Of a stretch of 60,741 bases of DNA, positions 1 to 56,982 are shown in pieces; the first letter of the stretch is position 1; every line of letters starts with the position of its first letter. A model generated the notes under the pieces. That model had not been told where the DNA came from. It ran no database searches and saw nothing but the letters and a program-made list of their open reading frames with translations. The stretch comes from Gammaproteobacteria bacterium. Its GTDB lineage: Bacteria > Pseudomonadota > Gammaproteobacteria > UBA9214. The stretch is taken from the NCBI GenBank assembly GCA_029860045.1, contig JAOUBY010000005.1, positions 1 to 60,741 on the forward strand, read 5' to 3'. The translations under genes were made by a program, and so were the position numbers.

Positions 1-640
1 GGCAGTCCTCGCAGGCACCGGTGGTCTGGATATGACTGGTCGACTTGCCGGTCGCAATGGTGCCGTTGTGACAGGATGAACAGTTGCCGGTCACCGTAGC
101 GTGGTCAAACAGGGCCGGGGTCCAGGCGTTGCTCGTGTGGCAATCGTCACAGGTATTGCTACTGGTGATGTGGGTTGCTGTCTTGCCAACCGCCGTGGTG
201 CCGTTGTGGCAGCTGAAGCAGGTACCCAGCACAGCGGCGTGGTTGACCTGCAGCACCGGGCTCCAGCTGGTCGTACCGTGGCAATCCTCGCAGGCACCGG
301 TGGTCTGGATATGGCTGGTCGACTTGCCAGTCGCTGTGGTGCCGTTGTGACAGGAAGAGCAGCTACCGGTCACCGTAGCGTGATCGAACAAAGCCGGCGT
401 CCAGGCATTGGTCGCATGACAATCATCACAGGTGTCATCACTGGGAATGTGATTGATCGTTTTACCCGTTGCAACCGTGCCATTGTGACAGGAGAAACAA
501 CTGCCGGTGACCGTATTGTGGTCGAACAGGGCCGGCGTCCAGGCATTGCTTGTATGGCAATCGTCACAGCTGTTGCCACTGACAATGTGATTGATCGTTT
601 TACCCGTTGCAACCGTACCATCATGGCAACTGAAACAGCT
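1..640 (-). repeat. Coding tandem repeat, ~138-141 bp period (di-heme unit)
   Basis: Near-identical blocks recur, e.g. 'ttgatcgttttacccgttgcaaccgt' at 453 and 591 (138 bp) and 'tggtctggatatg.ctggtcgacttgcc' at 22 and 301 (279 bp, two units). Confidence 0.85.
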
Positions 641-1171
641 GCCGGGTGACACGCTGTCATGCACAAACAGCGCGCCGGACCAGCTCGTTGTGTTATGGCA
701 GTCCTCGCACAGAGTGCCGGCTTCTACATGACTGGTCGACTTGCCAGTGGCCTGGCCGCCATCGTGACAGCTGACACAACTTCCGGTAACGACATCGTGA
801 TTCATACGCACCAGCGGCATCCACTGTGCACTGGAATGACATTCCCCGCACAGGGGCATGGTCTTGATGTGGTCGGCCGGCAGTGTTTGCCCGGTCATCC
901 GGCTGCTGTCGGCATGACAGACATTACACTCTGCCGGCGTTCCCTCGAACACGCCACGCAAATGACAACTGGAACAGTCGGCAGCCTCGTGTGCACCTTC
1001 AAGCGCAAACCCGGTCGACAGGTGCTCAAAGCTGACAGGATTGCGTTCCGCAGCGGCCTGCGGACTGGTAAACATGGCGACGATAGCTACCAGCATCAGG
1101 GCCACACCTGCCCGCAACATAATAGCCGTCATATTTGCGGACATGCTTCGTTCCCGTGTCTTGCTGTTCAT
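1..1171 (-). CDS. Multiheme c-type cytochrome, 3' end truncated by window start; tandem di-heme repeats
   Basis: Absent from the ORF track because no stop lies inside the window. Reverse-strand translation from ATG at 1171: MNSKTRERSMSANMTAIMLRAGVALMLVAIVAMFTSPQAAAERNPVSFEHL... followed by at least 14 complete CxxCH motifs in a 46-47 aa repeat (CDDCHTSNAWTPALFDHxTVTGxCxSCHNGTxATGK...). Confidence 0.93.
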   Translation of the reverse strand, partial: MNSKTRERSMSANMTAIMLRAGVALMLVAIVAMFTSPQAAAERNPVSFEHLSTGFALEGAHEAADCSSCHLRGVFEGTPAECNVCHADSSRMTGQTLPADHIKTMPLCGECHSSAQWMPLVRMNHDVVTGSCVSCHDGGQATGKSTSHVEAGTLCEDCHNTTSWSGALFVHDSVSPGSCFSCHDGTVATGKTINHIVSGNSCDDCHTSNAWTPALFDHNTVTGSCFSCHNGTVATGKTINHIPSDDTCDDCHATNAWTPALFDHATVTGSCSSCHNGTTATGKSTSHIQTTGACEDCHGTTSWSPVLQVNHAAVLGTCFSCHNGTTAVGKTATHITSSNTCDDCHTSNAWTPALFDHATVTGNCSSCHNGTIATGKSTSHIQTTGACEDC

Positions 1172-1196
1172 GGCTTCATACCCGTCATCACCCGCT

Positions 1197-2783
1197 TCAG
1201 CGCATCTCTGCCGATTCAAATGACTCTGCGTCATGGCAGCGCTCACAGTGACGACCGAACTGTCCATCGTGGATGTCATCCTGGCGGTGACATCCGTCGC
1301 AGCTTGTTGTCATGCTGATACGGCGTTTGGCCGGCTGCTTGTGACAGGCGTGGCAATCGATGCCCTGATGCCCTCCATCCAGACGGAAATCGGTACCTGC
1401 ATCATGATCGAACTCCCACAATGACCAGGCGTTCGGGTTGTGGCAGGTCTCACAGTTCGGACCGAGCCGTTGCCGGTGCACATCGCCGTCCTGGTGACAG
1501 GTGTTGCAGTCGCCCGGCGCATCGGTAAACAACGCGGACAAATGACACTCCTCACAGGGAGTAACTGCGTGCAGTCCGATCAGCGGAAAGTTCGTCAGGT
1601 CATGATCGAATCGCAGCTGTCCCGCCCAGCCACTCTCGTTATGGCAACTACCGCACTGCTCGCCCAACTTGCCCGCATGCACGTCATCCGGCTTGTGGCA
1701 GTCCTGACACTGCGTACCCAGTTTCTCCTCTTCCAGCTCACCGCGGTGGCATGCACTGCAGAGCAACTCATCGTGCCGCCCGCGCAGCAGAAAATCCGTC
1801 TTGGCATCATGATCAAAAACCATTTTTTCCCATCCGCTGGTTCGGTGACAGGAATCACAACGCTCACCATATCGCTCCCTGTGCACGTCATCATCGCGGT
1901 GACAGGAAACACAATCGGTTCCCAGTTCACGATCAAATGAACCATCACTGTGGCAGGTGTCGCAGGCAACCTTCCGGTGTTTTCCGGTTAACGGATAATC
2001 AGTATTCCTGTCATGATTGAAGCTGATACGTTTCCAGCCCTTTTCTTGATGACAGTCAGCACACTCCGCACCATAACGGCCTGCATGCACATCATTGAAA
2101 CGGTGACAGGCATGGCACTCCGTAGCCGTATCTTCATACTGTTGGTCAACATGGCAGCTATTGCAGGCCACCTCGGCGTGCTCACCATGCAAGGCGAAAT
2201 CTGTCTCGTTATGGTCGAAGTCCTGTCTGCGCCAACCCTGTGCGGTATGGCAGTCATCGCATTGCTCGCCAAGGTTTTCCCGGTGAATATCATCTTTGCT
2301 GTGACATGAAATACAGCGGTGTTCTGCACTGCGATACTTTTTTCCGATTGCATGGCATGCCACGCAATCTGTTCCGGCATGCGCTCCTTTCAGCGCATAA
2401 TCCGTCTGTTCGTGATCAAACGTTTCCCTGCTGAACTGCACGACAATTGCATCGCGACCCTCGTGATCATCGTGGCAGCTACTGCAGCTTTCCTTGCCTG
2501 CCCGGGTGCGACCGTGAAACCCCTTGTTTTCCTTCACATCGTCAGCCACATCCTCGTGACAATCCAGGCACAGCACATTCTGGCTTCCCTTGCTGAATGG
2601 ACGATGGCAGCGACTGCATTCACTCTCGTACTTCGCATGCCCCTGAATGAGCTTCCCGGGCATCACCAGCGATTCAATGCCGGCGGCATATGCCTTGTCA
2701 CTGTTAGCAAACATCATTACAGGCATGGACATCACCAGAATCAGGACCAGTCTCTTCACAACTACCGTCGTCACACGTGTCAA
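1197..2783 (-). CDS. Multiheme c-type cytochrome with 21 CxxCH motifs
   Basis: 528 aa, N-terminal hydrophobic signal; 21 CxxCH counted by eye; repeated HxxxxCxxCH...CxxCHxxDDVHxxxxGxxCxxCHxxxGW...FDHDxxTDFxL unit. Confidence 0.93.
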   Translation of the reverse strand: MTRVTTVVVKRLVLILVMSMPVMMFANSDKAYAAGIESLVMPGKLIQGHAKYESECSRCHRPFSKGSQNVLCLDCHEDVADDVKENKGFHGRTRAGKESCSSCHDDHEGRDAIVVQFSRETFDHEQTDYALKGAHAGTDCVACHAIGKKYRSAEHRCISCHSKDDIHRENLGEQCDDCHTAQGWRRQDFDHNETDFALHGEHAEVACNSCHVDQQYEDTATECHACHRFNDVHAGRYGAECADCHQEKGWKRISFNHDRNTDYPLTGKHRKVACDTCHSDGSFDRELGTDCVSCHRDDDVHRERYGERCDSCHRTSGWEKMVFDHDAKTDFLLRGRHDELLCSACHRGELEEEKLGTQCQDCHKPDDVHAGKLGEQCGSCHNESGWAGQLRFDHDLTNFPLIGLHAVTPCEECHLSALFTDAPGDCNTCHQDGDVHRQRLGPNCETCHNPNAWSLWEFDHDAGTDFRLDGGHQGIDCHACHKQPAKRRISMTTSCDGCHRQDDIHDGQFGRHCERCHDAESFESAEMR

Positions 2784-3739
2784 TACATATGAACTGCATA
2801 GACATGAATGACACCCGACAGCAACAACATCACGAATAATGGCAGGTGCAGCACATGCCAGAGTGCAAACAGGCGTTCATAAAATGTGAAGCCGGCAACC
2901 CGCCGGATGGTTTCCAGGTAACTTCGCAGATAAAAGCGGCTGCTCTGGCGCAGAGAGTGGAGCTGCCTGTTATCAATCCCGCCCTGCCGCTTGAGAATTC
3001 CGAGTGCACGACGCAGGCGGATACCGGCAACAAGACCGCACCAGCGGGACTTGACCCAGGTTGCAAGCACATGGACAAGACTGCCAATCAGCCCGTGCGG
3101 AAGCTGCAGTGTCTGACGTTCGAGCCGAACCAGGTTTTCACTCAGGGCTGGCATGACATCAAACACAACTTGCATGGATTTCCTCAGTGCTACGGCGTCG
3201 CTGCCCAGGTGCGCAAGATCGGCCTTCCTGCCATACAGACCGTAGTGCACCCGTGTATAAAAATACCTTCCCACCAACCCGCTGGAAGCCACCAGCAGCA
3301 TGCTGAACAGCGCCACATTCCCGTTCATGGAACCCAGCTGGAAGTTACAATGATAAAGAATACAAACCGGTCCAATAATTCCCATCAGCATGTGCATGCG
3401 AAACCAGTGCCGTACACGACCCAGGCGCCGCATCCAGCCGGCATGCTTTCGCAACGGATACAGAAGCAGTAGCAGCATCATGATCGCCCCGGCTATTCCC
3501 AGTGCATATCCCGCGCCCTGCTCCGGTGACAGATAGACATCACCCCGCCGCTGCCAGCCGGCTGCCAATACCGCTGCTACCGCGGCATAGAACAACAGGG
3601 TTCGCCAACCCCGGACCGCCATCGAGCGCAAGCGCTCGTTACGACCCGGATCTGCCTCGTTTGCGGCGGCCCGCGGCAGCTCAACGAGCTGTTCCGCAAC
3701 CAGGCTTCCGGTGCCCGATGATACGTTTTCCGGCTTCAT
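2780..3739 (-). CDS. Polytopic membrane protein, possible heme b/quinol-interacting membrane subunit
   Basis: Several TM segments with His residues (FRMHMLMGIIGPVCILYHCNF, LFALWHVLHLPLFVMLLLSGVIHVYAVH). Overlaps the start of the 21-heme CDS. Likely start MKPENVSS at 3739. Confidence 0.6.
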   Translation of the reverse strand: MKPENVSSGTGSLVAEQLVELPRAAANEADPGRNERLRSMAVRGWRTLLFYAAVAAVLAAGWQRRGDVYLSPEQGAGYALGIAGAIMMLLLLLYPLRKHAGWMRRLGRVRHWFRMHMLMGIIGPVCILYHCNFQLGSMNGNVALFSMLLVASSGLVGRYFYTRVHYGLYGRKADLAHLGSDAVALRKSMQVVFDVMPALSENLVRLERQTLQLPHGLIGSLVHVLATWVKSRWCGLVAGIRLRRALGILKRQGGIDNRQLHSLRQSSRFYLRSYLETIRRVAGFTFYERLFALWHVLHLPLFVMLLLSGVIHVYAVHMY

Positions 3740-3960
3740 GTCAGTTTCACCCAGGGTCCACAGCAAACCGGTTTACGCACTGAATTCCGTGAACCCCATC
3801 ACGGATACAGCCCTGTACCACCTCATTAATCGCTGCATATTGACCGTCACTCTGTGTCATTACATGTCCCTGCCAGGCATACGGATCAGACCGTCGCATC
3901 AGTATCCGTGTGCTGCCGACCGGTTTCTGAGAAACGAGTCAAAAATACGTCGCCCGTAAC

Positions 3961-3976
3961 TGTGACCGCCATCACA
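3961..3976. promoter_or_regulatory. CRP/Vfr-like palindrome TGTGA-N6-TCACA
   Basis: TGTGACCGCCATCACA in the divergent intergenic region between 3739(-) and 4098(+). Confidence 0.55.
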
Positions 3977-4097
3977 TTTTGGGAATATATTCCCATTTAT
4001 TGTAGAATGCAATCCATCGTTACATGCCGGTAATCCACTGCCGGCACATTGAGCCCCGGAGCAGAAATCCGGGAGAAAACCGGATCGCTTCCCTGCC

Positions 4098-5399
4098 ATG
4101 ACCGAACACCTGATCATTGTTTATGGCCTTCCGATGCTGTTGATATGGGCCGGCTACCTGACATTGCGCAACCTGAAACAGTCCAGGGCGCATTCACAGA
4201 TGCTGGCCGCGCAGGCAGCCGGACTCACCCAACCGGCATCACTGCATCCCGTGATCAATAGCACTGTGTGTATCGGCTGCAGCTCCTGCATCAGTGCATG
4301 CCCGGAACAGAACGTGCTGGGCCTGATCCGCGACAAGGCCGAACTGATCAACCCCACGCACTGTATCGGACACGGCGCCTGCAATACTGCCTGCCCGATG
4401 AATGCCATCAGCCTGGTATTCGGTACCGCAGAACGCGGCGTGGACATTCCACTAGTGTCTCCGGATTTCGAAACCAACGTACCGGGCATCTATATCGCCG
4501 GTGAACTCGGTGGCATGGGGCTGATACGCAACGCGGTGGAACAGGGGCGCCAGGCAATGGCATCTATTATCCGTTCACGCCGGCAGCAAACCGGGCAGCA
4601 GCTCGATGTGCTGATTGTCGGTGCCGGACCGGCCGGACTGTCGGCCAGCCTGGCCGCACACGAGCAGGGCCTGCGCTACATCACCGTTGAACAGGACTCG
4701 CTGGGCGGCACGGTTGCGCACTTCCCGCGCGGCAAGGTAGTCATGACTGCACCGGTCAAGCTGCCAATCGTCGGGAAAATGAATTTCAGGGAGGTATCCA
4801 AGGAAGCCTTGCTGGAATTCTGGGAGAAAGTCATAGCTGACACTGGCGTTGACATCAATTTCAGCGAACGCGTCGAAACGATCAGTCCGGAAGGTAAAGG
4901 ATTTGCGGTAAAGACGGCATGCAATAGTTACCAGGCCGCGTCCGTGCTGATTGCCATTGGCCGGCGCGGCACACCACGCAGGCTTGGCGTGCCTGGTGAA
5001 GATTCTGCCAAGGTCGTGTACCGGCTGGTTGACCCGGAACAGTATCGCGGGCAAAGCGTGCTGGTCGTTGGCGGGGGCGACAGTGCACTGGAAGCCGCGG
5101 CAAGTATTGCCGAACAACCCGGAACCTGTGTCAGCCTGTCCTACCGCAGCGCATCATTCTCTCGGGCCAAGGAGAAAAACCGTATCCGCGTGGCTGAACT
5201 CAGCGACAGTGGCAGACTGAAAGTGCTGATGTCCTCCAATGTCATGTCCATTAACGATGCTGATGTTGTCATCGAGCAACAGGGCACACAGATACAACTG
5301 GGAAACGACGCGGTTATTGTCTGCGCAGGCGGCATACTGCCCACCGCATTTCTTCAAAAGACCGGCATCGAGGTAGAAACAAAATATGGCACCAGCTGA
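4098..5399 (+). CDS. Membrane-anchored 2x[4Fe-4S] ferredoxin / FAD-NAD(P) pyridine nucleotide-disulfide oxidoreductase-like protein
   Basis: N-terminal TM; CIGCSSCISACP and CIGHGACNTACP; GAGPAGLSAS (FAD) and VVGGGDSALEAA (NAD(P)) Rossmann motifs. Confidence 0.85.
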   Translation: MTEHLIIVYGLPMLLIWAGYLTLRNLKQSRAHSQMLAAQAAGLTQPASLHPVINSTVCIGCSSCISACPEQNVLGLIRDKAELINPTHCIGHGACNTACPMNAISLVFGTAERGVDIPLVSPDFETNVPGIYIAGELGGMGLIRNAVEQGRQAMASIIRSRRQQTGQQLDVLIVGAGPAGLSASLAAHEQGLRYITVEQDSLGGTVAHFPRGKVVMTAPVKLPIVGKMNFREVSKEALLEFWEKVIADTGVDINFSERVETISPEGKGFAVKTACNSYQAASVLIAIGRRGTPRRLGVPGEDSAKVVYRLVDPEQYRGQSVLVVGGGDSALEAAASIAEQPGTCVSLSYRSASFSRAKEKNRIRVAELSDSGRLKVLMSSNVMSINDADVVIEQQGTQIQLGNDAVIVCAGGILPTAFLQKTGIEVETKYGTS

Positions 5400-7449
5400 C
5401 ATGACCAGGAGCACCTGGCATACATTCCCCCTGGGCGTCATGGCGACGCTGGCGCGTGTCTGCCTGCTTTGCATGCTGTCAGCACTGTGCAACCCGTCAG
5501 TTACGCTTGCGGACACTACCAAACTGGATGAATACCATGCCGCGGTACGTGTGCGCGACATGGACAGGGCAGCGAAAATTCTCTTGCCGCTGGCCAGGGA
5601 CGGCATGGCGGAGGCCCAGTACCAGCTGGCCGCGCTGTACCGCTCGGGCAATGGAGTAGAAAAGGACCACCGTATGGCATTCCAGTGGCTGCAGAAGGCA
5701 GCTGCACAGGACCATGCACAGGCACAGTACAACCTTGGTGTCATGTACGAACAGGGCTGGGGTACCGAAGCAGATTCGAAGAATGCCTTGCACTGGTACC
5801 GGCTTGCCGCCAGCCACGGACACAAAATGGCTGTCCGTAAACTGGAAGACACTCCTGCAGACAATGCAATTCAGAGTGATGTCAGCGCAGAAGAATTGTT
5901 ACGCCGCGCGGTCATCAGGGACGACCTGTCATCCACCCGTTCCCTGCTTGTGGCCGGCGCGGATGTCGATAGTAGCGACGATTACCAGAGAACAATCCTG
6001 ATGGATGCCGCAGAACTGGGTAACCCCGAGATCTTCGCACTGCTGGTTAGCCACAGCAGAAAACCGGACTTACAGGATGCCAGCGGCGAAACCGCTCTGC
6101 ATATCGCAGTCAGTAACGACCGCCAGCCGATCGTAAAACTACTGCTTTCAGCGGGGGCCAGCGCCGGCATCGCGGATCAACGCGGTAACACGCCACTTAT
6201 GATTGCCGCCGGCAGAAACCAGCTCACCATTTTCAGAGCACTGCTTGACAGTCACTCACGCCCCGAAGCCAGTAACAGCGCCGGACTGACGGCTGCTGAT
6301 ATTGCTGCGCGCAAGCAAAACGAAAAAATCCTGAAACTGTTGTCGGGGCATGGCATATACCCTGCCCGAAGCCATACAAAGTCACCCGCACATGCCTCGG
6401 AACTGCTCGCTCTGCAGGAAGAAACAGCGGCAGACAGACCTTCACCGCAGCATGCCATGTCTCCACTAAACGAGGCAGCATGGCGCGGACAGGAAAACAT
6501 CGTGCGCGAACTCATCAGGCAAGACGCCAGCATCAACAGCCGTGATAGCGAAGGTCATACCGCATTGTCGCGCGCCGCATGGAAGGGACACAGTGCAATT
6601 GTCGAATTACTCCTGGACAGTGGAGCCCGCGCGGACATTGTACTCGATGGCGGCATAACGCCGCTGATGTACGGCACGCTCTCGGGTGATGATGCTACGG
6701 TTGTTGCATTACTGGATAGCGGCGTTGATACCAACGCCCGACAGCACGACGGACGCACCGCATTACACCTGGCTGTAGCCGGCGACTACACAGATATTGT
6801 CCGGCTACTGCTGTTACATCAGGCCGACATCGCGCTGGCCGATTCAGATGACAGAACCGTGCTGATGCTGGCAGCGCAGCTCGACAGTCCGCACATACTG
6901 GGAGACCTGCTGGACCGCAACCCCGCCATCAATGCCCGCGACCGCAATGCACATACGGCACTCTGGCACGCAACCCGCAATGGGCTGCCACGTAACACCG
7001 GTTTACTGCTGCAGCGGGGCGCCGATCCGGAGGTTAGTGACCGCAAGGGTCATACCGCGCTGACACTGGCTGCCTCACGGGCAGACAAGGTAATCGCCAA
7101 GCAGCTGGTCAGGCACAAGGCCGATATCAACGTCCGCACCCATGATGAAAACACGCCCCTGATGCTGGCCGCACAGGCGGGTGCTGACGGGCTTGCACAA
7201 CACCTGATCGATTCCGGCGCCGAGGTGAATGCCAGGAACCGGCAGGGCGATACCGCGCTGATGCTGGCCGTCGCCCGTGGCGAGACGGTAACTGTCCGCA
7301 CCCTGCTGGAAGGCGGCGCGGATCTGCGCATCCGTAACAACAGCCGCGCACGGGCACGCGATATTGCCACCGCCGGGGGTTACGACAATATATTAGATCT
7401 GCTGAATAAACATGAGTCCCGGTCCAGCTGGAAGGCCAAATGGTTCTGA
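5386..7449 (+). CDS. Sel1-like TPR plus ankyrin-repeat exported protein
   Basis: Signal-like N-terminus; AEAQYQLAALYRSGNGVEKD and AQAQYNLGVMYEQGWG Sel1 repeats; many ankyrin units (DxxGxTALxxAxxxGxxxIVxLLL). Start overlaps the upstream CDS (alternative ATG 5401). Confidence 0.88.
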   Translation: MAPADMTRSTWHTFPLGVMATLARVCLLCMLSALCNPSVTLADTTKLDEYHAAVRVRDMDRAAKILLPLARDGMAEAQYQLAALYRSGNGVEKDHRMAFQWLQKAAAQDHAQAQYNLGVMYEQGWGTEADSKNALHWYRLAASHGHKMAVRKLEDTPADNAIQSDVSAEELLRRAVIRDDLSSTRSLLVAGADVDSSDDYQRTILMDAAELGNPEIFALLVSHSRKPDLQDASGETALHIAVSNDRQPIVKLLLSAGASAGIADQRGNTPLMIAAGRNQLTIFRALLDSHSRPEASNSAGLTAADIAARKQNEKILKLLSGHGIYPARSHTKSPAHASELLALQEETAADRPSPQHAMSPLNEAAWRGQENIVRELIRQDASINSRDSEGHTALSRAAWKGHSAIVELLLDSGARADIVLDGGITPLMYGTLSGDDATVVALLDSGVDTNARQHDGRTALHLAVAGDYTDIVRLLLLHQADIALADSDDRTVLMLAAQLDSPHILGDLLDRNPAINARDRNAHTALWHATRNGLPRNTGLLLQRGADPEVSDRKGHTALTLAASRADKVIAKQLVRHKADINVRTHDENTPLMLAAQAGADGLAQHLIDSGAEVNARNRQGDTALMLAVARGETVTVRTLLEGGADLRIRNNSRARARDIATAGGYDNILDLLNKHESRSSWKAKWF

Positions 7450-7606: not shown

Positions 7607-8065
7607 TTAGCGCGCACTGAGAACGTCGTGAAAGATCGATCGCAGATCGCTCTCCCAGCGCGCAAAGAAAACAGGATCAATCGCATCACCTGCAATCCGG
7701 GCATACACTCCCGGGTTAATCGTCACCAGCACTGTCTGTCCGCCCTCGGCAAAAATGGAGATTTTCGGGGGCATGTAGGGGATCAGCTGCGGCGCCTTCT
7801 CTGTCAACATGCGGATTTCATCGATCTTGCCGGCAAACACGATACGGTACTTGTCAGTCGGGTAACCCATGCCGGTCAGCCCGATATCAATACGCTGCAC
7901 CCGTGATACCGTGTAGCCATGTCCGGTAATGGATTCCTGCAATGCCAGCATGGTCTCGGGAAACGGTAACACCGAACGTATCATGATCATGTCTTCAGCC
8001 GCTGCCGTCACCGTGACCTGTAGTAACAGCCACACCAGCAGCACTTGCAGAGTACTTTTTCTCAC
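7607..8065 (-). CDS. DUF302-type exported protein
   Basis: GTG start overlapping upstream TGA; signal peptide; FPETMLALQESITGHGYTVSRVQRIDIGLTGMGY...YRIVFAGK typical of DUF302. Confidence 0.7.
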   Translation of the reverse strand: MRKSTLQVLLVWLLLQVTVTAAAEDMIMIRSVLPFPETMLALQESITGHGYTVSRVQRIDIGLTGMGYPTDKYRIVFAGKIDEIRMLTEKAPQLIPYMPPKISIFAEGGQTVLVTINPGVYARIAGDAIDPVFFARWESDLRSIFHDVLSAR

Positions 8066-9096
8066 AGCGTCGCCTCCTCCATGATCTCCAGGTACACCGC
8101 GCGCATGCGCCTGCAATATTCATCCAGATCGGAATTGTTAAACAGGTGACTGAGGTACGGGGGGTTAAGGGTACTGATGGTCACCTTGCCGCCCTGCTCC
8201 GTTACCGTGACCCGGCAGGGCAGGAATATACCCACACGCGGGTCAACTGCCAGCGCCTCATACAGGAACCTGAAATTACAGAAATGCAGGATGACCTGCT
8301 GCTGGTTCTCCTGCGCTTTCTCTACCAGTCCGTGTTCCAGGGTATCGGACCGGATCAGGACGAAATTCTGGCTGATGATGGCCTGTTTGAGGTTTTCGAC
8401 GGTTTCCTCAATCGAGTAAGGTGAGTCAACCGTTATTGTCGCCAGTTCACCGGTTTTATCTGCTGCCTTGACGGGGTCCTTGCTCTCGAAGGACCTCACG
8501 TAACTGACCAGGTCATCGATATCGCGCTCGGACAGGCCCTGCTCAAGGAAGGAACGCATTGGCGAGCCTTTACGCCCGAACTGCAAGGTGTGCTTTATCA
8601 TGGCGTCTGTCGCGGCGCGCAGGAAGCCGCTGTTGTTGAGCGCCGGCGCAATAATTGGCTGGTCCCGATGACGTGAAAGGGTAATACCTGTCCCTCTCCC
8701 CCCCTCGCCACTGGCCCCGTGACAACCTGCACAACGGGTGGCAAACAGTGCCTTGCCATGCTGCGCATCGCCCGACACCGGTGTCGACGCGTAAACCGGA
8801 GCCGGTTGCTTCGACCAGCTACGTATGAAGGCCACAATCGCGTTGGTCTGCGCATCACTCAATGCACTGAAGGCAGGCATGACCCGGCCGGGGCGTCCGT
8901 AACGTATGCTGATAGCCAGAAACCGGTCATCGACGCTGTCGAGAAAGGACGGCAACGACAGCGGCACACCGACACCACCACCGCCCTTGTCGCCATGACA
9001 GGCCGCACAGTGGCTTGCATACAGGGCCGTGCCATCCGGCGCAGCAACGGCAACCAGGCTAACAGCAAGTAAAAAAAGTCCAATAATCAAACGCAT
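8062..9096 (-). CDS. Di-heme cytochrome c fused to a C-terminal DUF302-like domain
   Basis: MRLIIGLFLLAVSL signal; CAACHGDKGGGG and CAGCHGASGEGG; C-terminal SIEETVENLKQAIISQNFVLIRSDTLEHGL...ILHFCNFRFLYEALAVDPRVGIFLPCRVTV. Confidence 0.85.
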   Translation of the reverse strand: MRLIIGLFLLAVSLVAVAAPDGTALYASHCAACHGDKGGGGVGVPLSLPSFLDSVDDRFLAISIRYGRPGRVMPAFSALSDAQTNAIVAFIRSWSKQPAPVYASTPVSGDAQHGKALFATRCAGCHGASGEGGRGTGITLSRHRDQPIIAPALNNSGFLRAATDAMIKHTLQFGRKGSPMRSFLEQGLSERDIDDLVSYVRSFESKDPVKAADKTGELATITVDSPYSIEETVENLKQAIISQNFVLIRSDTLEHGLVEKAQENQQQVILHFCNFRFLYEALAVDPRVGIFLPCRVTVTEQGGKVTISTLNPPYLSHLFNNSDLDEYCRRMRAVYLEIMEEATL

Positions 9097-9181
9097 AATC
9101 AGGATAATCTCCCGTGGGCGCACACCTTTAATAATAAGAAATCAACGTTATAATAATATTATCATATATATGTATGTTTTT

Positions 9182-9195
9182 TTGACGCAGGTCAA
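9182..9195. promoter_or_regulatory. FNR/DNR-like palindrome TTGACGCAGGTCAA
   Basis: Upstream of the sulfur globule-like gene; TATAAT at 9233-9238. Confidence 0.45.
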
Positions 9196-9272
9196 TGCTC
9201 CTTGGATCCAATTCAGCAATCATAATGCTGTCTATAATTCTGTATGGACTCATTGTAAAGGAGGATTTACCG

Positions 9273-9698
9273 ATGAAAAGCTTGAAAATGACAATTGCAA
9301 TTGCCGCAATCGCCGGACTGGCCGCACTGCCGATGACATCTGCCCATGCATGGGGTGGTTGGGGTCCGTGGAGCGGTAATAATGGCTGGGGCAACGACGG
9401 TTGGGGCGACGGCAGTGGCGACTTCGACGGCGACTTCAACATGGGCTTCAGCGGCGGCGGCCGGGGTTCCGGCTACGGTCGCGGTTACGGTCGTGGTTAT
9501 GGTCGAGGCTATGGTTATGACGGTTATGGGCCGGGTTACGGCTACGGCGGCTATCCGGGCTACGGCTACGGTGGTGGCTACCCGGGCTACGGCTACGGTG
9601 GTGGCTACCCGGGCTACGGCTATGCGCCGTACGGCGGTGTTCCCTATGGCGCACCAGCAGCTCCGGCCGCTCCGGCCGCTCCGGCCGCCAGCCAGTAA
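9273..9698 (+). CDS. Sulfur globule protein-like (Gly/Tyr-rich, secreted)
   Basis: AAAGGAGG RBS at 9257; [26 protein letters not shown] signal; [42 protein letters not shown] repeats resembling Allochromatium SgpA/SgpB. Confidence 0.75.
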
Positions 9699-21777: not shown

Positions 21778-23028
21778 TTATAACCCCGTCCGGTGCGCAC
21801 GCGCACTGAAAAAGATGCCGCTTGGTTTTTCAGCAGCAAGTGTCGCCACCTGCGTCAGGCTGCTGGTATCGTAAACCTGCACGGCATCGGCATCGCGCAC
21901 CGAAATCCAGACTGCCTCGCCACGCGGAGTGAATTCCATGTGCAGCACGCCCTTGCCAGGCTTGAAAGTATGCACGATCTGCCTCGAGTGCGTATCGATA
22001 ACCTGTACCGTGTCATTACGCGGGTGCGCAAAATTTACCCACACCCGCCGTCCACCCGGTTCGGCCACGACAAATACCGGCTGTCCGTGCACGGGAATCC
22101 GTGCCACCTGTTGCCAGTCTTCACTGTCAACCACCAGCACTGCATGCTGCCCAACCGCCGGCAGGAAGGCCTCCCGGCCGGCCATCGCCCAGCCTTCCAG
22201 GTGCGGCATCTTGTAGACCGGCAGTTTCTGCTGTCCCCGACCGTAACCATCGAGGATACGCCGGGCAGTTTTCTGCGAACCCCACAGGTCCACCAGCGCC
22301 AGACCATCTTCGCCAAACAGGCCGGCAATGTAAAAACGGCCATCCGGCGAGATCAGTGCATCGTAGGGTAGCCGGCCGATATTGCGGAACACCTGGACAG
22401 CCGGCTTTGCCGGATCAGACAGGTCGGCGATACGAATCTCGCCGGCATCATACAGGGTATAGACAAAGCGCTGGCCGGGCGCATCTACCAGGCCAACCAC
22501 TTTTGATGTGCCACCCTTCGCATCGTGTGCCGGCAAATCGGCAACCAGTTTCAGGCTGCCGGCATCGAACACCTTGACGCCACCCGGTTCATAGTTGGAC
22601 ACCGCGACCAGGCTGCCATCCTGCGAGATTGCGCCGCCGATGCTGTTGCCGGCCTGGACCACACGCTTGACCAGTTCACCGCACAACAGGTCGATCTTGG
22701 ACAGGCCGCCGTCACGGCCGAAAATGTATGCGTAGCGGGCATCGCGTGAAAATACTGCCGAGGCATGCGACAGGTCACCCAGGCCCTCGACCAGGAACAG
22801 GCGCGTCCGCGCCGTGGTATCGACAACCTGCACACTGCCGCTGGCGCGCTCGATGACAACACCAAGGTCACCTGTGCCACGCGTGAGGCACTCGGCATGC
22901 ACAGTAAACGTCAGGCCTGTCAGCAACAGAATGAATAGAAACCATCCAACAAATCGCGCCTGCAAGGCGCTCCTACGCAGGTAGAAACATCCGTAGGAGC
23001 GCCTTGCAGGCGCGATCAACACACTCAC
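21778..23028 (-). CDS. nirF: Heme d1 biosynthesis protein NirF (d1-type beta-propeller)
   Basis: TRGTGDLGVVIERASGSVQVVDTTARTRLFLVEGLGDLSHASAVFSRDARYAYIFGRDGGLSKIDL; GTG start overlapping the nirC TGA (GTGA) behind GGAAAGGA. Confidence 0.92.
   Translation of the reverse strand: MSVLIAPARRSYGCFYLRRSALQARFVGWFLFILLLTGLTFTVHAECLTRGTGDLGVVIERASGSVQVVDTTARTRLFLVEGLGDLSHASAVFSRDARYAYIFGRDGGLSKIDLLCGELVKRVVQAGNSIGGAISQDGSLVAVSNYEPGGVKVFDAGSLKLVADLPAHDAKGGTSKVVGLVDAPGQRFVYTLYDAGEIRIADLSDPAKPAVQVFRNIGRLPYDALISPDGRFYIAGLFGEDGLALVDLWGSQKTARRILDGYGRGQQKLPVYKMPHLEGWAMAGREAFLPAVGQHAVLVVDSEDWQQVARIPVHGQPVFVVAEPGGRRVWVNFAHPRNDTVQVIDTHSRQIVHTFKPGKGVLHMEFTPRGEAVWISVRDADAVQVYDTSSLTQVATLAAEKPSGIFFSARAHRTGL
22953..23016. 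repeat. REP-like inverted pair: 24-bp perfect inverted repeat, 16-bp spacer
   Basis: atcgcgcctgcaaggcgctcctac (22953-22976) / gtaggagcgccttgcaggcgcgat (22993-23016). Confidence 0.9.
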
Positions 23029-23348
23029 AATCCTTTCCCCTGGCGCAAGGCCTCGACCAGCCAGTGCACATCCTGCTCACTAAGTAAGCCGCGCCACGGC
23101 GGCATCGGCGTGCCAGGCCTGCCTTCGAGTACCGTGTTTACCAGTAGCGCCTGCGGGCGCGCACGCAGCTTGTCAGGTAACAGCGACGGGCCCAGCCCAC
23201 CCTTGCGGGTCATACCATGGCAGGAACCACAATCGTGCTTGAGGAGATGCAGCAGCTCAGCCTGTCTCGCTGCGTCAACGCCAGCTGAAAGCGCGGGCAG
23301 GTTGACCATCATGACCAGGACAAACAGCAGCTTGCTAGTTTTTCTCAC
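23025..23348 (-). CDS. nirC: Monoheme cytochrome c (NirC-like)
   Basis: CGSCHGMTRKGGLGPSLLPDKLR...MPPWRGLLSEQDVHWLVEAL; start of nir operon. Confidence 0.87.
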   Translation of the reverse strand: MRKTSKLLFVLVMMVNLPALSAGVDAARQAELLHLLKHDCGSCHGMTRKGGLGPSLLPDKLRARPQALLVNTVLEGRPGTPMPPWRGLLSEQDVHWLVEALRQGKGL

Positions 23349-23409
23349 ACCTAGTGTCTCGTTGATAATATTATCGATCCTTAATATAACAAGCCGATTA
23401 CTGCACCCC

Positions 23410-23423
23410 TTGATCTATATCAA
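23410..23423. promoter_or_regulatory. FNR/DNR-like palindrome TTGATCTATATCAA
   Basis: Perfect TTGAT-N4-ATCAA upstream of nirC (-). Confidence 0.75.
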
Positions 23424-23566
23424 TTTCGGACAAGGGCAAGAACCTTGCTCATCCTGATGAACTGGTTAACCATCCAAATGGCTCCTGCCGGTCGGCCCGG
23501 ATCGCTTTCAGAAACCCTGGTAGAGCGTTGGCAATCCCTGCAACCGGCCATAAAATTTGCCCACGG

Positions 23567-23580
23567 TTGATCTACATCAA
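23567..23580. promoter_or_regulatory. FNR/DNR-like palindrome TTGATCTACATCAA
   Basis: Perfect TTGAT-N4-ATCAA upstream of nirS (+). Confidence 0.75.
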
Positions 23581-23780
23581 GAAGGCAATTAAGTCCGGGT
23601 TTAATAATCACACCGCACTGCGAAATTATCCTGACCGTAGCGGGCGTCAAATTTCTGCCTGAACTGGCTACAACCCGTTACCATCAAACCATAGTAAAAG
23701 TAAGCATTCTCTTCAGAACACAGAAGTCAGTATTATACGCAACGAAATTTACTTTCAGCACTAACTAAGGAGTTTAACCA

Positions 23781-25451
23781 ATGAGCGTGAAGCGCATAAC
23801 AAGGTACGGGGTGGCACTGCTCGCCTCGTGCATGGGCCTGGCAACGACAACCGGTATTGCGTTTGCCAAAAAAGAGGCATTTGTTCCCCTTAACGAAGCA
23901 GAATTCGAACAGGCAAAAAGCATGTATTTCCAGCGCTGTGCCGGCTGCCATGGTGTTCTGCGCAAGGGCGCGACCGGTAAAAGCCTGTTACCACAGCCAA
24001 ACAAAGCCAAAAAGTCCAAGGGCACTCTCAAACTGGGGACGAAACGGCTTACCAAGATCATCAAGCTGGGCACCGAAGGTGGCATGAACAACTTCGATGA
24101 TGTCTTCTCGGACAAGCAAATCGACCTGCTGGCCCGGTATATCCAGATGGAACCGCCGATTCCGCCTGAAATGCCTCTTTCACTAATGAAGGAACGTCAC
24201 AAGGTATACATCGAACCGAAAGATTACCCGAAGAAGCCGCTGCATGGCCGCAACTGGGAGAATTTCTTCGTGGTCATCGAGCGTGATGCCGGCAAGATTG
24301 CCATTATCGATGGTGACAAGCATGAAATTGTTGACCATATTGACACCGGCTATGCGGTACACGTTATCAAGGCGACAGAACATCACGACAAGGAAAAACC
24401 GGTCGGCGGTGTTGCCGGCCGCTTCTGGTATACCCAGGGCCGTGATGGCAAGATGACCAAGATCGATCTGTGGCAAAAGCCTGGCAGTATGCTGGTGGCT
24501 GAGGCGCAGATGGCCTACGATGCACGCGACGTTGCCGTATCCGGTGATGGCAAGTATGTCATCGGTGGCGGGTACTGGCCCCCACACTTCGTAATTCTCG
24601 ACGCAATTACCATGGAGCCACTGAAAGTAGTTTCAACCCGTGGCATCAATATCGATGGTGACTACGTCAACGAGTCTCGCGTGGCCGCGATCTACACCAC
24701 GCCGGGCCAGTCTTCCTTCTGGGTTGCCATGAAGGAACTGGGGCAGATGTGGCAGGTCAACTACACCGACCTCGACAACCTCGCGATCAAACAGGTCAAT
24801 TCGGCGAAGTTCCTGCACGATGGATTCTTCGACCCGACCGGCCGTTACTTCCAGATAGCCGCCAACGCATCGAACAAGATGGTTATCGTCGACTCCAACA
24901 CCGGTAAGCTGGAAGCAATGATCGACACCGCCAAGTTGCCGCACCCGGGTCCGGGCGCCAACTGGAACGACCCGCAATGCGGACCTGTAGGTGGCACCAC
25001 CCACCTCGGCGAAGGCAAGGTCACCGTCTGGGGTAACGATCCCAAGGGTCACAAGAAAGAGGCCTGGAAGATCTGCTACGAAGTTGAAACGGACGGTGCC
25101 GGAGTATTTATCCGTACCCATCCGACATCTGACTTTGTCTGGGCAGACCAGACCAAGCACCCGGAACCTGTAATCCAGCAGAGCGTCAAGGTCATTGACA
25201 AGAAGACACGGAAAGTTGTCAAAACCATTCGGGTGACCGAGGAAGAAGGCAAGGCCGCAGTGCACATGGAGTTCAACAAGGATGGCTCAGAGGTGTGGGT
25301 TTCGGTCTGGAACCGCAAGGACAACAAGAACCCCACTGGTGAAATCGTGGTCTACGATGCCAAGACTCTCAAGGAGAAGAAACGCATCAAGGGCCTGACG
25401 ACACCAACTGGCAAGTTCAATGTTTACAATCGTACCAACCACGTAACGTGA
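23781..25451 (+). CDS. nirS: Cytochrome cd1 nitrite reductase
   Basis: N-terminal CAGCHGVLRKGATGKSLLP c domain; d1 propeller NWENFFVVIERDAGKIAIIDGDKHEIVDHIDTGYAVH...RFWYTQGRDGKMTKIDLW...HPGPGANW. Confidence 0.96.
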   Translation: MSVKRITRYGVALLASCMGLATTTGIAFAKKEAFVPLNEAEFEQAKSMYFQRCAGCHGVLRKGATGKSLLPQPNKAKKSKGTLKLGTKRLTKIIKLGTEGGMNNFDDVFSDKQIDLLARYIQMEPPIPPEMPLSLMKERHKVYIEPKDYPKKPLHGRNWENFFVVIERDAGKIAIIDGDKHEIVDHIDTGYAVHVIKATEHHDKEKPVGGVAGRFWYTQGRDGKMTKIDLWQKPGSMLVAEAQMAYDARDVAVSGDGKYVIGGGYWPPHFVILDAITMEPLKVVSTRGINIDGDYVNESRVAAIYTTPGQSSFWVAMKELGQMWQVNYTDLDNLAIKQVNSAKFLHDGFFDPTGRYFQIAANASNKMVIVDSNTGKLEAMIDTAKLPHPGPGANWNDPQCGPVGGTTHLGEGKVTVWGNDPKGHKKEAWKICYEVETDGAGVFIRTHPTSDFVWADQTKHPEPVIQQSVKVIDKKTRKVVKTIRVTEEEGKAAVHMEFNKDGSEVWVSVWNRKDNKNPTGEIVVYDAKTLKEKKRIKGLTTPTGKFNVYNRTNHVT

Positions 25452-25490
25452 TGTGAGCTTCAGACATCCTGTTACGATGTAAGCAATAAC

Positions 25491-25532
25491 AAGGGCGGAC
25501 ATAATCTAAACATTGTGTCCGCCCTTTTTTCT
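25491..25532 (+). terminator. Intrinsic terminator after nirS
   Basis: aagggcggaca...tgtccgccctt followed by tttt. Confidence 0.88.
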
Positions 25533-25670
25533 CCAGAATTACCTGTTACATGCAAAGTTCGTCCGGTGGATTATTGTCAGGCAGTTTGAGAATCAGCTGA
25601 ATCGCTCATCAACAGATCACTAAACCATGAAAAGACTAGCGGACCATAATTGCAGGCGATTTTTTTCTTT

Positions 25671-25706
25671 CATTTTCAATGGCCGCCAAGCCATTGAAAA
25701 TGGCGG
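25671..25706. repeat. 13-bp perfect inverted repeat with alternative pairings in the leader
   Basis: cattttcaatggc-cgccaa-gccattgaaaatg; alternative gccatt-gaa-aatggc and ccgcca/tggcgg; no U-tract in either direction. Confidence 0.75.
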
Positions 25707-25776
25707 TACGCCCTTGTTCCACAAGACTCTATAATCTGATATTCCCTGACAACGAACCTTAAGGTAATAAATATCA

Positions 25777-27561
25777 ATGGCCAGTCAGAAACCCATCTTC
25801 GGCTTGATGTCGCGCAAGGTTCTGTTCGGAACCACTCTCGCTGCGGCCCTGTTTTTCATGATAGTCGGTGTCATCTTCTGGGGCGGCTTCAATACGGTTA
25901 TGGAGGCCACCAACACCCTGTCATTCTGTATTTCCTGTCATGAAATGGAAGAAAACGTTTATCAGGAATACACAAAAACCATTCACTACACCAACCGCAG
26001 TGGTGTACGCGCCACCTGCTCCGATTGTCACGTACCTGATCCATGGGTGCACAAGGTTGTGCGTAAAATCCAGGCCAGTAACGAGGTAGTACATAAAGTA
26101 CTGGGTTCGATTAATACCCCGGAGAAGTTCGATAAAAAACGCCTTAAACTGGCAAAAAATGTCTGGCGTGCAATGAAAACGACGGACTCGCGCGAATGCC
26201 GCAACTGTCATGATTTCGATTCCATGAATCCGGAAGATCAGAAAAAACGTTCGCGCAAGCAGCATATCAACGGCATGGAAGCAGGCAATACCTGTATCGA
26301 CTGCCACAAGGGGATAGCGCATACAAAGGTGCACGACCAGCTGACTGATGAAGAATTGACGGCACTGGAACAGCCGCACCCGGAGAACAAGCGCCCGATA
26401 CCGCCACAGTGGCAGGCGTTTATCGATGCCCAGGCCGCCGGCAAGGCCCCTGCAAAAGAAGAGGAAGAAGTCGAGGAAGAGGTCGATGAAACGACCTCCA
26501 CGGCTGTGGAACAGGCCCCTGAAGCCACAACAGAAAGCGCAGCTGCTGCTCCAGCCGCTGCCGCCGCAGCAGCTGCGTCTACCGGCCCTGCAGCGAACAT
26601 CGACTGGTCAGGCATCGAGCCAAGGGAAGTTGTCCTGTTCTACCCCGGCCAGGCTTCAATGGAATGGACCCTGAAAGGCAGTGACCATGGTGGTAAACGT
26701 GCCTTTGTAACGGGTGACCGTTGCTTTGAGTGTCACGAAGATGAGGAAGTTGATATCGGTGATCTGATCATATCCGGTGACAAGGCCGAAGCTACGCCTA
26801 TTCCCGGCAAGCGTGGCAGCATCGCGGTCAACATTCAGGCGGCGCACGACGCCAGTAACCTGTACATGCGCTTCCAGTGGGAAGACGGTGAGCACGCGCC
26901 CATTCCGTTTGCCGACGGTGGCAAGATGGATCCGGACAACCCGGTCAAGCTGGCCATCATGCTGGCCACAGACAATGAAGATGATCCGAAAGTGGAATAT
27001 GCAGAACGTGCAGGTTGCTGGCAGTCCTGTCACCACGATGCCAATTACATGCCTCACCAGCCTGACAAGGCCACCCTGGCGGACAGTCCGCTGGCTGCGC
27101 GACTCGATCTGAGCATGGGCTTCACCAAGTACCTCAAAGAAAGTCGCACTTCAATCGAGATTGAAGGCAAGGAAGGCAAGATGCGCGGTGGCTGGGGCAA
27201 TCTGAAAGATGAAGCCGCGATCCGGGCAGCGCTGGAGAACGGTTCGTTCATGGACCTGCTGCGCTACAAGTCCGGCACCGGTGAATCCGAAGATGGTTAT
27301 ATCCTGGCCGAGCGCGTCATGACCGGCGGTCAGGGGGTGAATTTCACGGGCAGCCTCAAGGATGGTGTATGGACGGTTGAAATGACCCGCAAGCTGACCT
27401 CGGACAAGCCCGGCGACATCAGCATGAGCACTGATGAGTGGTATAACATTGGTTTCGCGATTCACGATGATTACAGCAACAGCCGCTTCCATCATGTGTC
27501 ACTGGGGCTGAAGCTGGGCTTTGATGATGAAGATGCAGAAATCAATGCAATAGGGAAGTAA
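25777..27561 (+). CDS. NapC/NirT-type tetraheme cytochrome fused to an ethylbenzene dehydrogenase-like heme-binding domain
   Basis: N-terminal TM; CISCH, CSDCH, CRNCH, CIDCH; Ala/Glu-rich linker; C-terminal part with CFECH, CX3CH (CWQSCH), VNIQAAHDASNLYMRFQWED and WTVEMTRKLTSDKPGDISMSTDEWYNIGFAIHDD. Confidence 0.85.
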   Translation: MASQKPIFGLMSRKVLFGTTLAAALFFMIVGVIFWGGFNTVMEATNTLSFCISCHEMEENVYQEYTKTIHYTNRSGVRATCSDCHVPDPWVHKVVRKIQASNEVVHKVLGSINTPEKFDKKRLKLAKNVWRAMKTTDSRECRNCHDFDSMNPEDQKKRSRKQHINGMEAGNTCIDCHKGIAHTKVHDQLTDEELTALEQPHPENKRPIPPQWQAFIDAQAAGKAPAKEEEEVEEEVDETTSTAVEQAPEATTESAAAAPAAAAAAAASTGPAANIDWSGIEPREVVLFYPGQASMEWTLKGSDHGGKRAFVTGDRCFECHEDEEVDIGDLIISGDKAEATPIPGKRGSIAVNIQAAHDASNLYMRFQWEDGEHAPIPFADGGKMDPDNPVKLAIMLATDNEDDPKVEYAERAGCWQSCHHDANYMPHQPDKATLADSPLAARLDLSMGFTKYLKESRTSIEIEGKEGKMRGGWGNLKDEAAIRAALENGSFMDLLRYKSGTGESEDGYILAERVMTGGQGVNFTGSLKDGVWTVEMTRKLTSDKPGDISMSTDEWYNIGFAIHDDYSNSRFHHVSLGLKLGFDDEDAEINAIGK

Positions 27562-27583
27562 GTACAACCTGACTCGTACCAGG

Positions 27584-27617
27584 GCCGCAGGGACGCATTT
27601 GTCCCTGCGGCTTTTTT
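27584..27617 (+). terminator. Intrinsic terminator
   Basis: gccgcagggac-gcattt-gtccctgcggc followed by tttttt. Confidence 0.92.
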
Positions 27618-27675
27618 GCGAACTGAGCCTCGGTTATGATTGTCTCAACCACGATCATATGAAGAGAACAAGCCC

Positions 27676-28008
27676 ATGAAGCGTCAATCATTGCTACTGG
27701 TTATTTTGCTGGCAGTTTTTAATCATGGCGTATTCGCCAATGGTGATGATAGCCAGCTGGTGATTATCAAGGATTACAAGTTTGTCCCGCAGGAAGTTAC
27801 CATCAAGCGTGGCCAGACCCTGCGCTGGGAAAATCGTGAAAAACGCCAGTATCACAGCGTCTGGTTCGAGGCGCTGGGCGAAGATGAGCCCGAAGACTAC
27901 CTGTTCCCCGATGATTCCTATGAGCGTGAATTCACGCAAGCGGGTTCTTTTCCCTACCGTTGTGGTCCACACCCTGAAATGACGGGTACGGTACACGTAG
28001 CAGAGTAA
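27676..28008 (+). CDS. Cupredoxin (plastocyanin/azurin-like type 1 Cu protein)
   Basis: VIIKDYKFVPQEVTIKRGQTLRWEN...YHSVWFE...FPYRCGPHPEMTGTVHV (H...C..H..M). Confidence 0.87.
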   Translation: MKRQSLLLVILLAVFNHGVFANGDDSQLVIIKDYKFVPQEVTIKRGQTLRWENREKRQYHSVWFEALGEDEPEDYLFPDDSYEREFTQAGSFPYRCGPHPEMTGTVHVAE

Positions 28009-28011
28009 TTC

Positions 28012-29577
28012 ATGCCATACAAAGAAATTTTGTCAAAAGCTGTATTGTTGGGCCTTGCGCTCGCAATAACATCTGTGACTTTCGCGGATGATGTTGCAAA
28101 ACACTATAAAGACAACTGTGCCGTTTGCCACAACGAACATCGCCTGGGCGGCATAGGACCTGCGCTGCTGCCTGGCAATCTTAAACGTCTGCGCAAAAAA
28201 ACCGCTGTTGATGTCATCTCAAATGGTCGCGCTGCTACCCAGATGCCCGCCTTTGCAGAAAAGCTGTCAGAAACAGACATCAAGGCACTGGTTGAATACA
28301 TTTATACGCCGCCTGAAGAAATGCCTGTCTGGGGTCTGGACAAAATAAGTGCCAGTCACATCATCCACAATCATGAATCCGAACTGCCGAACAAGCCGGT
28401 GTTCAAGGTCGATGATCTGTTGAACATGTTCCTGGTCGTGGAACTCGGCGACCACCACGTCACCCTGCTCGATGGGGACCGTATGGAGCCCATACACAGG
28501 TTCAAATCACGCTTTGCCTTGCACGGAGGCCCAAAATATTCATCATCAGGACGTTTTGTCTATTTCGCCTCGCGTGACGGCTGGATCAGCAAGTACGATA
28601 TTTACAATCTAAAACTGGTAGCCGAGATCCGCGCCGGCATCAACACCCGCAACCTCGCGGTATCTGCTGATGGCCGTTATGTGATGGTGGCAAATTACCT
28701 GCCGCATTCACTGGTACTTCTGGATGCGTCCGACCTGAGACCGATCAAGCTGTACGATGTCAGGGACAGCAATGGAAATACTTCCCGCGTCAGTGCCGTT
28801 TATACAGCACCACCGCGCAACAGTTTTATCGCGGCACTCAAGGACATCCAGGAAGTCTGGGAAATATCATACGATAATGACCCGCCAATCGGTTTCGACG
28901 GCTGGGTGCACGATTACCGCACCGATTCCGGCGAAAACGTCGAACCTGAGCCTTTCCCGGTTCGGAAAATCAAGGTTAATGATTACATCGACGATTTCTT
29001 CTTCGACCAGGAGTACGTATCCCTGATCGGGGCCTCTCGCGAAGGCAAGGGACAAGTGGTCGATATGGATATCGGCAGGGTCATCGTCACAGACCTGGAA
29101 CTGCCGGGTATGCCGCACCTTGGCTCGGGAATAACCTGGGAATACAAGGGTCGGCCTGTACTGGCAACGCCGAACCTGAAAAAAGGCGATGTCAGCGTAA
29201 TCGATATGGAAACATGGAAGGCCATCAAACATATTGAAACCCTTGGCCCCGGCTTTTTCATGCGCAGTCATGAAAACACACCTTACGCCTGGGTCGATGT
29301 ATTCTTTGGCCCCAACAAGGATGCGATGCACGTGATTGACAAGAGTACGCTGGAAATCGTCAAGACGCTGCGCCCCGTACCGGGCAAAACAGCGGCACAC
29401 ATCGAGTTCACCCGTGATGGGAAATATGCCCTGCTCAGCATCTGGGACCCGGACGGCGCCGTGATTGTGTACGACGCGGCAACACTGGAGGAAGTAAAGC
29501 GCATACCGATGAACAAACCGTCGGGCAAATACAATGTATACAACAAGACCCGCTATTCAGCGGGGACAAGCCACTGA
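28012..29577 (+). CDS. nirN: NirN-like cytochrome c / d1-type propeller protein (NirS paralogue)
   Basis: CAVCHNEHRLGGIGPALLPGNLKRLRKK; d1 propeller with MFLVVELGDHHVTLLDGDRMEPIHRFKSRFALHGGPKYSSSGRFVYFASRDGWISKYDIY. Confidence 0.75.
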   Translation: MPYKEILSKAVLLGLALAITSVTFADDVAKHYKDNCAVCHNEHRLGGIGPALLPGNLKRLRKKTAVDVISNGRAATQMPAFAEKLSETDIKALVEYIYTPPEEMPVWGLDKISASHIIHNHESELPNKPVFKVDDLLNMFLVVELGDHHVTLLDGDRMEPIHRFKSRFALHGGPKYSSSGRFVYFASRDGWISKYDIYNLKLVAEIRAGINTRNLAVSADGRYVMVANYLPHSLVLLDASDLRPIKLYDVRDSNGNTSRVSAVYTAPPRNSFIAALKDIQEVWEISYDNDPPIGFDGWVHDYRTDSGENVEPEPFPVRKIKVNDYIDDFFFDQEYVSLIGASREGKGQVVDMDIGRVIVTDLELPGMPHLGSGITWEYKGRPVLATPNLKKGDVSVIDMETWKAIKHIETLGPGFFMRSHENTPYAWVDVFFGPNKDAMHVIDKSTLEIVKTLRPVPGKTAAHIEFTRDGKYALLSIWDPDGAVIVYDAATLEEVKRIPMNKPSGKYNVYNKTRYSAGTSH

Positions 29578-52054: not shown

Positions 52055-52150
52055 AACAACTCCTCGATTAATGCAGGGGCCACAGCTGCCCCTGTAAATA
52101 TTTGCGCCTGCAGAGCCTTTTCTCGCAAAGGCGAGAGCGTTCCTCTTTGC

Positions 52151-55231: not shown

Positions 55232-55261
55232 CGTGTGTCTCCTGTATAAATGTATCTGTCG

Positions 55262-55666: not shown

Positions 55667-55675
55667 GGAAATACC

Positions 55676-56203: not shown

Positions 56204-56258
56204 CTAGCCTCCCCTTCGTCCAGAACCTGATTTCTACAGCATGCATATCATGGCTTTA

Positions 56259-56272
56259 TTGACGGAGGTCAA
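56259..56272. promoter_or_regulatory. FNR/DNR-like palindrome TTGACGGAGGTCAA
   Basis: TTGAC-N4-GTCAA in the divergent hya/hyp intergenic region. Confidence 0.5.
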
Positions 56273-56357
56273 TTCCGCACCCGATTTTTCATGCTTAATT
56301 AGTCCATCACTTAGAGTTGGTGGTGATCTGGCCATTGTGGCCGCGGGGGTAAATCTG

Positions 56358-56964: not shown

Positions 56965-56982
56965 ATTATCCAAGGAGTCCCC

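Follow-up and report, generated by a model that had tools for sequence, protein, structure and literature searches.

Porin-cytochrome c clusters of the PCC3 type, predicted to conduct electrons across the cell envelope, are widespread in Proteobacteria and are discussed as possible iron-oxidation machinery. They were defined in 2017 by He et al. (PMC5566968). According to the accessible text of that paper, the PCC3 inner membrane protein has about 300 amino acids and five transmembrane segments (TM), with the motif WX3HX13H on TM3 and TM5 and SGXXG on TM4. The periplasmic multiheme cytochrome has a median of 21 hemes and a low ratio of amino acids per heme, while the extracellular cytochrome is repeat-rich, rich in T, S, A and G, and carries many hemes, with an outer-membrane porin encoded adjacent to it.

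The window analyzed here is a stretch of 60,741 nucleotides from a gammaproteobacterial genome of 2.4 Mb in 156 contigs. At its left end lie five ORFs, whose positions and strands in the initial annotation agree with the ORFs of the window. They are listed below together with the elements that belong to them.

2..1279, minus strand: repeat multiheme cytochrome, 5' part, with 14 CXXCH motifs visible; extracellular PCC3 type judged by gene order and composition
Contig C64, L096:2-949: 3' part of the repeat cytochrome, with 12 more CXXCH motifs
1197..2783, minus strand: 21-heme periplasmic cytochrome of PCC3, 528 amino acids, about 25 amino acids per heme
2780..3766, minus strand: PCC3 inner membrane protein, predicted diheme b-type, 328 amino acids; probable start at ATG 3739
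3767..4097: intergenic region of 331 bp separating the two divergent operons
3980..3995: perfect 16-base palindrome TGGGAATATATTCCCA within the divergent region
4098..5399, plus strand: predicted membrane-anchored 2x[4Fe-4S] ferredoxin and FAD/NAD(P) oxidoreductase, 433 amino acids (hereafter the flavoprotein)
5386..7449, plus strand: predicted exported Sel1 and ankyrin repeat protein, 687 amino acids; start possibly at 5401

We found that the membrane protein displays five hydrophobic segments, two WX3HX13H motifs and one SGXXG motif, which is the published PCC3 signature. W121-H125-H139 lies on segment 3, S162-G163-G166 on segment 4 and W303-H307-H321 on segment 5. The motif residues are invariant in an alignment of 41 relatives, the pairs H125/H139 and H307/H321 being present in all 41. 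The protein matched no Pfam family at E 0.01 and no NCBIfam model, and sequence searches against the PDB and plasmids returned no match. The second cytochrome carries exactly 21 CXXCH motifs in its 528 residues, as expected for the PCC3 periplasmic cytochrome, and the same number was counted in 32 of 39 scored relatives. The repeat cytochrome, with 14 and 12 CXXCH motifs on two contigs and with T, S, A and G as its commonest residues, fits the composition and heme content of the PCC3 extracellular cytochrome, and its extracellular location is predicted. Its start is likelier to be near 1171, because the ATG at 1279 overlaps the preceding gene and 1171 gives a clear signal peptide. From the signature motifs and the neighboring 21-CXXCH protein, we assign the locus by sequence to PCC3, as a porin-cytochrome cluster cut by the contig end. 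Like PCC3 in ES-1 (Slit_0867-0870 and Slit_1446-1449), it combines a porin, a repeat-rich extracellular cytochrome, a 21-heme cytochrome and an inner membrane protein, and both the gene order and the two WX3HX13H and one SGXXG motifs of the membrane protein are identical to what the accessible text of the original description gives (PMC5566968).

The first reading of this DNA as an electron-transfer module is supported. Its further statement that the set matches no described type of locus is not supported, since the two cytochromes, the membrane protein and an off-contig porin constitute PCC3 (PMC5566968). Homology to a described complex, which the first reading had itself named as a counter-argument, thus applies to the PCC3 part, and for the flavoprotein/ankyrin pair we found no description.

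The presence and strand of the repeat cytochrome were confirmed, but the gene is incomplete: contig C80 ends at window position 1 and thereby cuts it. Contig C64 of the same genome opens inside a cytochrome with 12 CXXCH motifs, and the repeats of this cytochrome correspond to the ones seen at the window edge. The order on this contig (3' part of the cytochrome, small gene, porin, DUF6502 gene, lipoprotein-like gene) is the same as in the relative G008. Searching the genome of the window with the G008 porin gave a single strong homologue (63% identity), located on contig C64, so that a porin beyond the left end of the window, as the initial annotation had envisaged, is indeed encoded in this genome. 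This homologue of about 816 amino acids ends in a C-terminal Phe, follows the cytochrome 3' part and the small gene, and corresponds by sequence to the PCC3 porin; its adjacency to the window is deduced. A search for a base overlap between the C80 and C64 ends found none, and for this reason their join is likewise deduced. Together, the repeats on C64, the porin and the G008-like order indicate that the PCC3 locus is most likely complete in the genome, with an assembly break within the cytochrome repeats. On the other side of the locus, the flavoprotein and ankyrin genes overlap by 14 bases as annotated, but this overlap is lost if the ankyrin gene begins at its second ATG (5401).

Two other described systems were considered as candidates. 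MtrCAB/MtoAB (MtrAB) was rejected on the basis of the DmsE-family decaheme model TIGR03508, which scored 92.5 bits versus a cut-off of 192.2. PCC4 likewise features a porin, multiheme cytochromes, redox proteins nearby and a membrane protein of five TM that shares the His motifs, but according to the accessible text it has 4-, 5- and 10-heme periplasmic cytochromes and no extracellular cytochrome (PMC5566968); it was rejected as the heme counts of the window locus differ.

In the membrane protein, loops 2-3 and 4-5 are rich in Arg and Lys, which points to an N-in, C-out topology with a cytoplasmic loop 4-5 of 126 residues. With this topology, H125 and H307 would lie towards the cytoplasmic side and H139 and H321 towards the periplasmic side. 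Two HX13H pairs on two helices are also found in ferric reductases and NADPH oxidases (NOX; FRD, PF01794), although the protein does not match PF01794. Foldseek searches of the PDB gave no significant match and only middling helical look-alikes; the comparison with cytochrome b561 (Z 8.7 over 132 residues) is within the range of unrelated helical bundles. The likeness to ferric reductases therefore rests on the motifs. At the level of the whole system, the locus resembles these enzymes in pairing a predicted two-HX13H diheme transmembrane unit with a predicted cytoplasmic FAD/NAD(P)H unit, but differs from them in that the units are two separate proteins, with predicted Fe-S clusters between them and a heme wire as proposed acceptor.

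Across 50 loci around membrane-protein relatives, we found a recurring order, ANK< FeS-FAD< | IMP> MHC21> MHC> (small)> porin>. The flavoprotein gene lies at most 2.5 kb upstream of the membrane-protein gene in 40 of the 50 loci, divergently in 39, and the ankyrin gene adjoins it in 29 of those 40. A porin match was present in 34 loci; of the other 16, 14 have less than 4 kb of sequence past the membrane protein. The flavoprotein gene lies away from the membrane-protein gene in several genomes. Some of these cases are only apparent exceptions, the locus being split; in G103, the flavoprotein gene and the ankyrin gene are found at a different contig end, next to a porin and a cytochrome of PCC3.

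The membrane protein and the flavoprotein were also searched independently in the whole sequences of the same 370 genomes of the class. Both were found in 41 genomes, only the membrane protein in one, only the flavoprotein in one and neither in 327 (Fisher p about 3e-52, 31 families, in a test that takes no account of shared ancestry). Neither exception looks complete: in G203, a flavoprotein with an internal truncation adjoins the membrane protein, and the G114 copy sits on a contig of 3.5 kb together with multiheme fragments and an ankyrin gene. In a phylum-wide draw of 397 genomes, five genomes besides the window genome matched both proteins strongly, none matched only one and 391 matched neither; of these five, G103 was shared with the class draw and another comes from outside the class. 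Strong matches to the membrane protein were defined by more than 100 bits, and in the phylum draw by E <1e-80, cut-offs set after a gap in the scores had been seen; weaker relatives of the membrane protein occur without the flavoprotein. Copy numbers agree as well, with two membrane proteins and two flavoproteins in each of G055, G058, G115 and G304, and the distance matrices of the two families correlate (r 0.78, Mantel p 0.001, without a species-tree control). The grouping of the five families seen at first reading hence goes far beyond chance, with the flavoprotein as a near-obligate companion of the PCC3 membrane protein. With PCC3, the exported Sel1-ankyrin protein is frequent but not universal.

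This partnership distinguishes the present locus and nearly all relatives examined from PCC3 as published, where the text gives four genes, whereas these loci add the Fe-S/FAD/NAD(P) protein and, usually, also the Sel1-ankyrin protein. The accessible text of the PCC3 descriptions mentions neither gene, and genes that are shown only in figures or supplements may exist. A literature search for papers linking PCC3 with ankyrin, ferredoxin or flavoprotein found none, figures and supplements aside. The flavoprotein therefore appears to be a new, undescribed PCC3 partner.

The flavoprotein consists of one N-terminal hydrophobic segment, two Fer4 domains and a Pyr_redox_3 domain (E 5.2e-42). Its mean column identity of 58% is the highest of the three aligned families (membrane protein, 33%; ankyrin protein, 39%). 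Basic residues following the anchor place the redox domain, by prediction, in the cytoplasm. In the ferredoxin part, all 39 sequences share C58, C64, C68, C89, C95, C99 and H92, and 35 of them have C61. H92 stands at the position of a cluster cysteine, the second motif being CxxHxxCxxxCP, and its natural reading is that of a His ligand, which would make one cluster a Cys3His cluster. The flavin part contains GxGPxG and GGGxxALE motifs as well as conserved R350, R356 and K360, and adopts a two-Rossmann FAD/NAD(P) fold. The closest solved folds are YpdA/Bdr and thioredoxin-reductase-like enzymes, the latter including ferredoxin-NADP reductases. In contrast to these, the window protein adds an N-terminal anchor and a 2x[4Fe-4S] ferredoxin and lacks the catalytic cysteine. 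Given where we take the known catalytic residues (the CxxC of thioredoxin reductase, the single active Cys of YpdA) to fall on the flavoprotein, position 179 is Ala or Ser, and C275, C344 and C409 are not conserved. The aligned relatives show no conserved catalytic cysteine or redox disulfide in the flavin domain, and a thiol-reductase role was rejected on this ground. The flavoprotein looks like an adaptor from NAD(P)H to the heme wire. In the single-contig genome G056 (L049:10700-12400), its gene is split by an insert of ~200-240 bases, with both halves otherwise well kept.

The ankyrin protein has a signal-like N terminus followed by Sel1 (E 1.2e-20) and ankyrin repeats (E 8.7e-75). Exported ankyrin proteins help catalase heme loading in the pairs AnkB/KatB and Cj1386/KatA (cited in PMC10294975). 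Like AnkB of P. aeruginosa, which is periplasmic, and Cj1386 of C. jejuni, the window protein is encoded beside a heme protein; their partners, however, are catalases, and the window protein is longer and carries Sel1 repeats. By analogy, it is probably a periplasmic assembly or heme-delivery scaffold, which is the weakest step of our model. Convergent with its gene, at 7607-9123, lie genes for a diheme cytochrome c carrying a fused DUF302 domain and for a small protein resembling DUF302. The same DUF302 pair adjoins the ankyrin gene in L044, the G008 locus, and relatives of the diheme cytochrome are found near PCC3 in L070 and L076. L044 also contains a CcmH/CycH-like TPR gene of the cytochrome c maturation type (8805-9554; Pfam was run on this locus only), with similar genes in L051, L055, L057, L088, L089 and L090; the window has none.

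In the divergent region, we found no convincing shared FNR or Fur site. The palindrome TGGGAATATATTCCCA is the only match to TGGGAANNNNTTCCCA in the genome, is identical in G008 and has a similar counterpart, TGGGAAAATTTTCCCA, in L075; it is a possible candidate for a dedicated operator.

The best reading of the flavoprotein beside PCC3 is the link between NAD(P)H or ferredoxin and heme wires that had already been proposed at first sight. In this circuit, NAD(P)H would reduce the FAD of the anchored flavoprotein, and electrons would exit one at a time via the two Fe-S clusters, one of them the predicted Cys3His cluster, to the cytoplasmic-side heme of the membrane protein and on to its periplasmic-side heme. 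From there they could pass along the 21-heme periplasmic wire to the repeat cytochrome and porin, and to the outside. Membrane protein and flavoprotein would form a two-piece unit resembling an NADPH oxidase or ferric reductase. Electrons leaving NAD(P)H for the outside run downhill with the membrane potential in their favor, whereas both factors oppose uptake to NAD(P)+. Redox potential and membrane potential thus favor outward flow, which is the most likely net direction in this model, and PCC3 here probably serves electron export. Transcript data from ES-1 agree with this direction, PCC3 being less strongly transcribed on Fe(II) than on thiosulfate (PMC8788666).

The main competing explanation, which we regard as rather unlikely, holds that PCC3 is an uptake conduit, for example for Fe(II) oxidation, in which the membrane protein reduces quinones and the flavoprotein is a side enzyme making NAD(P)H or reduced ferredoxin. 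It agrees with the model of He et al., in which an extracellular donor supplies electrons to the quinone pool (PMC5566968), and with the presence of PCC3 in iron oxidizers. In strain CL21, the PCC3 membrane component rises with iron-oxidizing ability and is up during iron oxidation (PMC12442390); these data fit uptake as well. The lower expression on Fe(II) in ES-1 speaks against it, as does the extracellular PCC3 cytochrome going undetected in ES-1 proteomes (PMC12016527). Moreover, the locus encodes no pump, without which reduction of NAD(P)+ from outside against the membrane potential would be a steeply uphill step.

It is less probable still that the flavoprotein/ankyrin pair stands outside the electron path and instead helps the giant cytochromes to mature or protects their redox state, through heme or thiol reduction or through assembly. 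The CcmH/CycH-like gene between flavoprotein and membrane protein in several loci, the exported ankyrin proteins that assist catalase heme loading in other bacteria (PMC10294975) and the resemblance of the flavin domain to thiol-disulfide reductases would suit such a role. Yet that domain has no conserved catalytic cysteine, the redox domain is predicted to be cytoplasmic whereas heme attachment is periplasmic, and the flavoprotein accompanies PCC3 in 41 of 42 cases though many other genomes make c-type cytochromes. Finally, the association might be functionally meaningless and stem from a chance neighborhood or from common descent. Even within the genus the distribution of PCC3 is patchy, by loss or transfer, with the membrane protein in 5 of 12 relatives (G001-G012), so the block could be inherited or transferred as a whole, and the Fisher test ignores ancestry. 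An association that spans 31 families, extends outside the class, includes unlinked genes and is mirrored in copy number renders this explanation very improbable.

Taken as a whole, we consider it somewhat probable that a PCC3-type locus, split by an assembly break, works together with a cytoplasm-facing NAD(P)H/ferredoxin module, its near-obligate and apparently undescribed partner, along the outward path described above. More tentatively, PCC3 might be a split NADPH-oxidase-like machine in proteobacteria of many families, rather than a four-gene conduit linked to quinones; in it, the membrane-anchored Cys3His flavoprotein would pass pyridine-nucleotide electrons straight to the 21-heme wire and on to the exterior, bypassing quinones.

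Regarding the host, ORFs read at 21778-30567 and 50333-58904 of the window include a cd1-type nitrite reductase, NirF/NirN-like genes, a [NiFe] hydrogenase, an HdrB-like gene and HypD, and dsrA is located elsewhere in the genome, on contig C106. The host looks like a hydrogen- and sulfur-oxidizing denitrifier.

Overall, a near-obligate flavoprotein would, in our best model, tie PCC3 to the cytoplasmic pyridine-nucleotide/ferredoxin pool and not only to quinones. With this addition the likely electron partner of PCC3 changes, and therein lies its importance: a flavoprotein of the NAD(P) type that faces the cytoplasm suggests a specific inner-membrane partner and, by energetics, outward flow. 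This bears on whether PCC3 belongs among the iron-oxidation machinery, for which S. lithotrophicus ES-1 offers a cultured PCC3 carrier.
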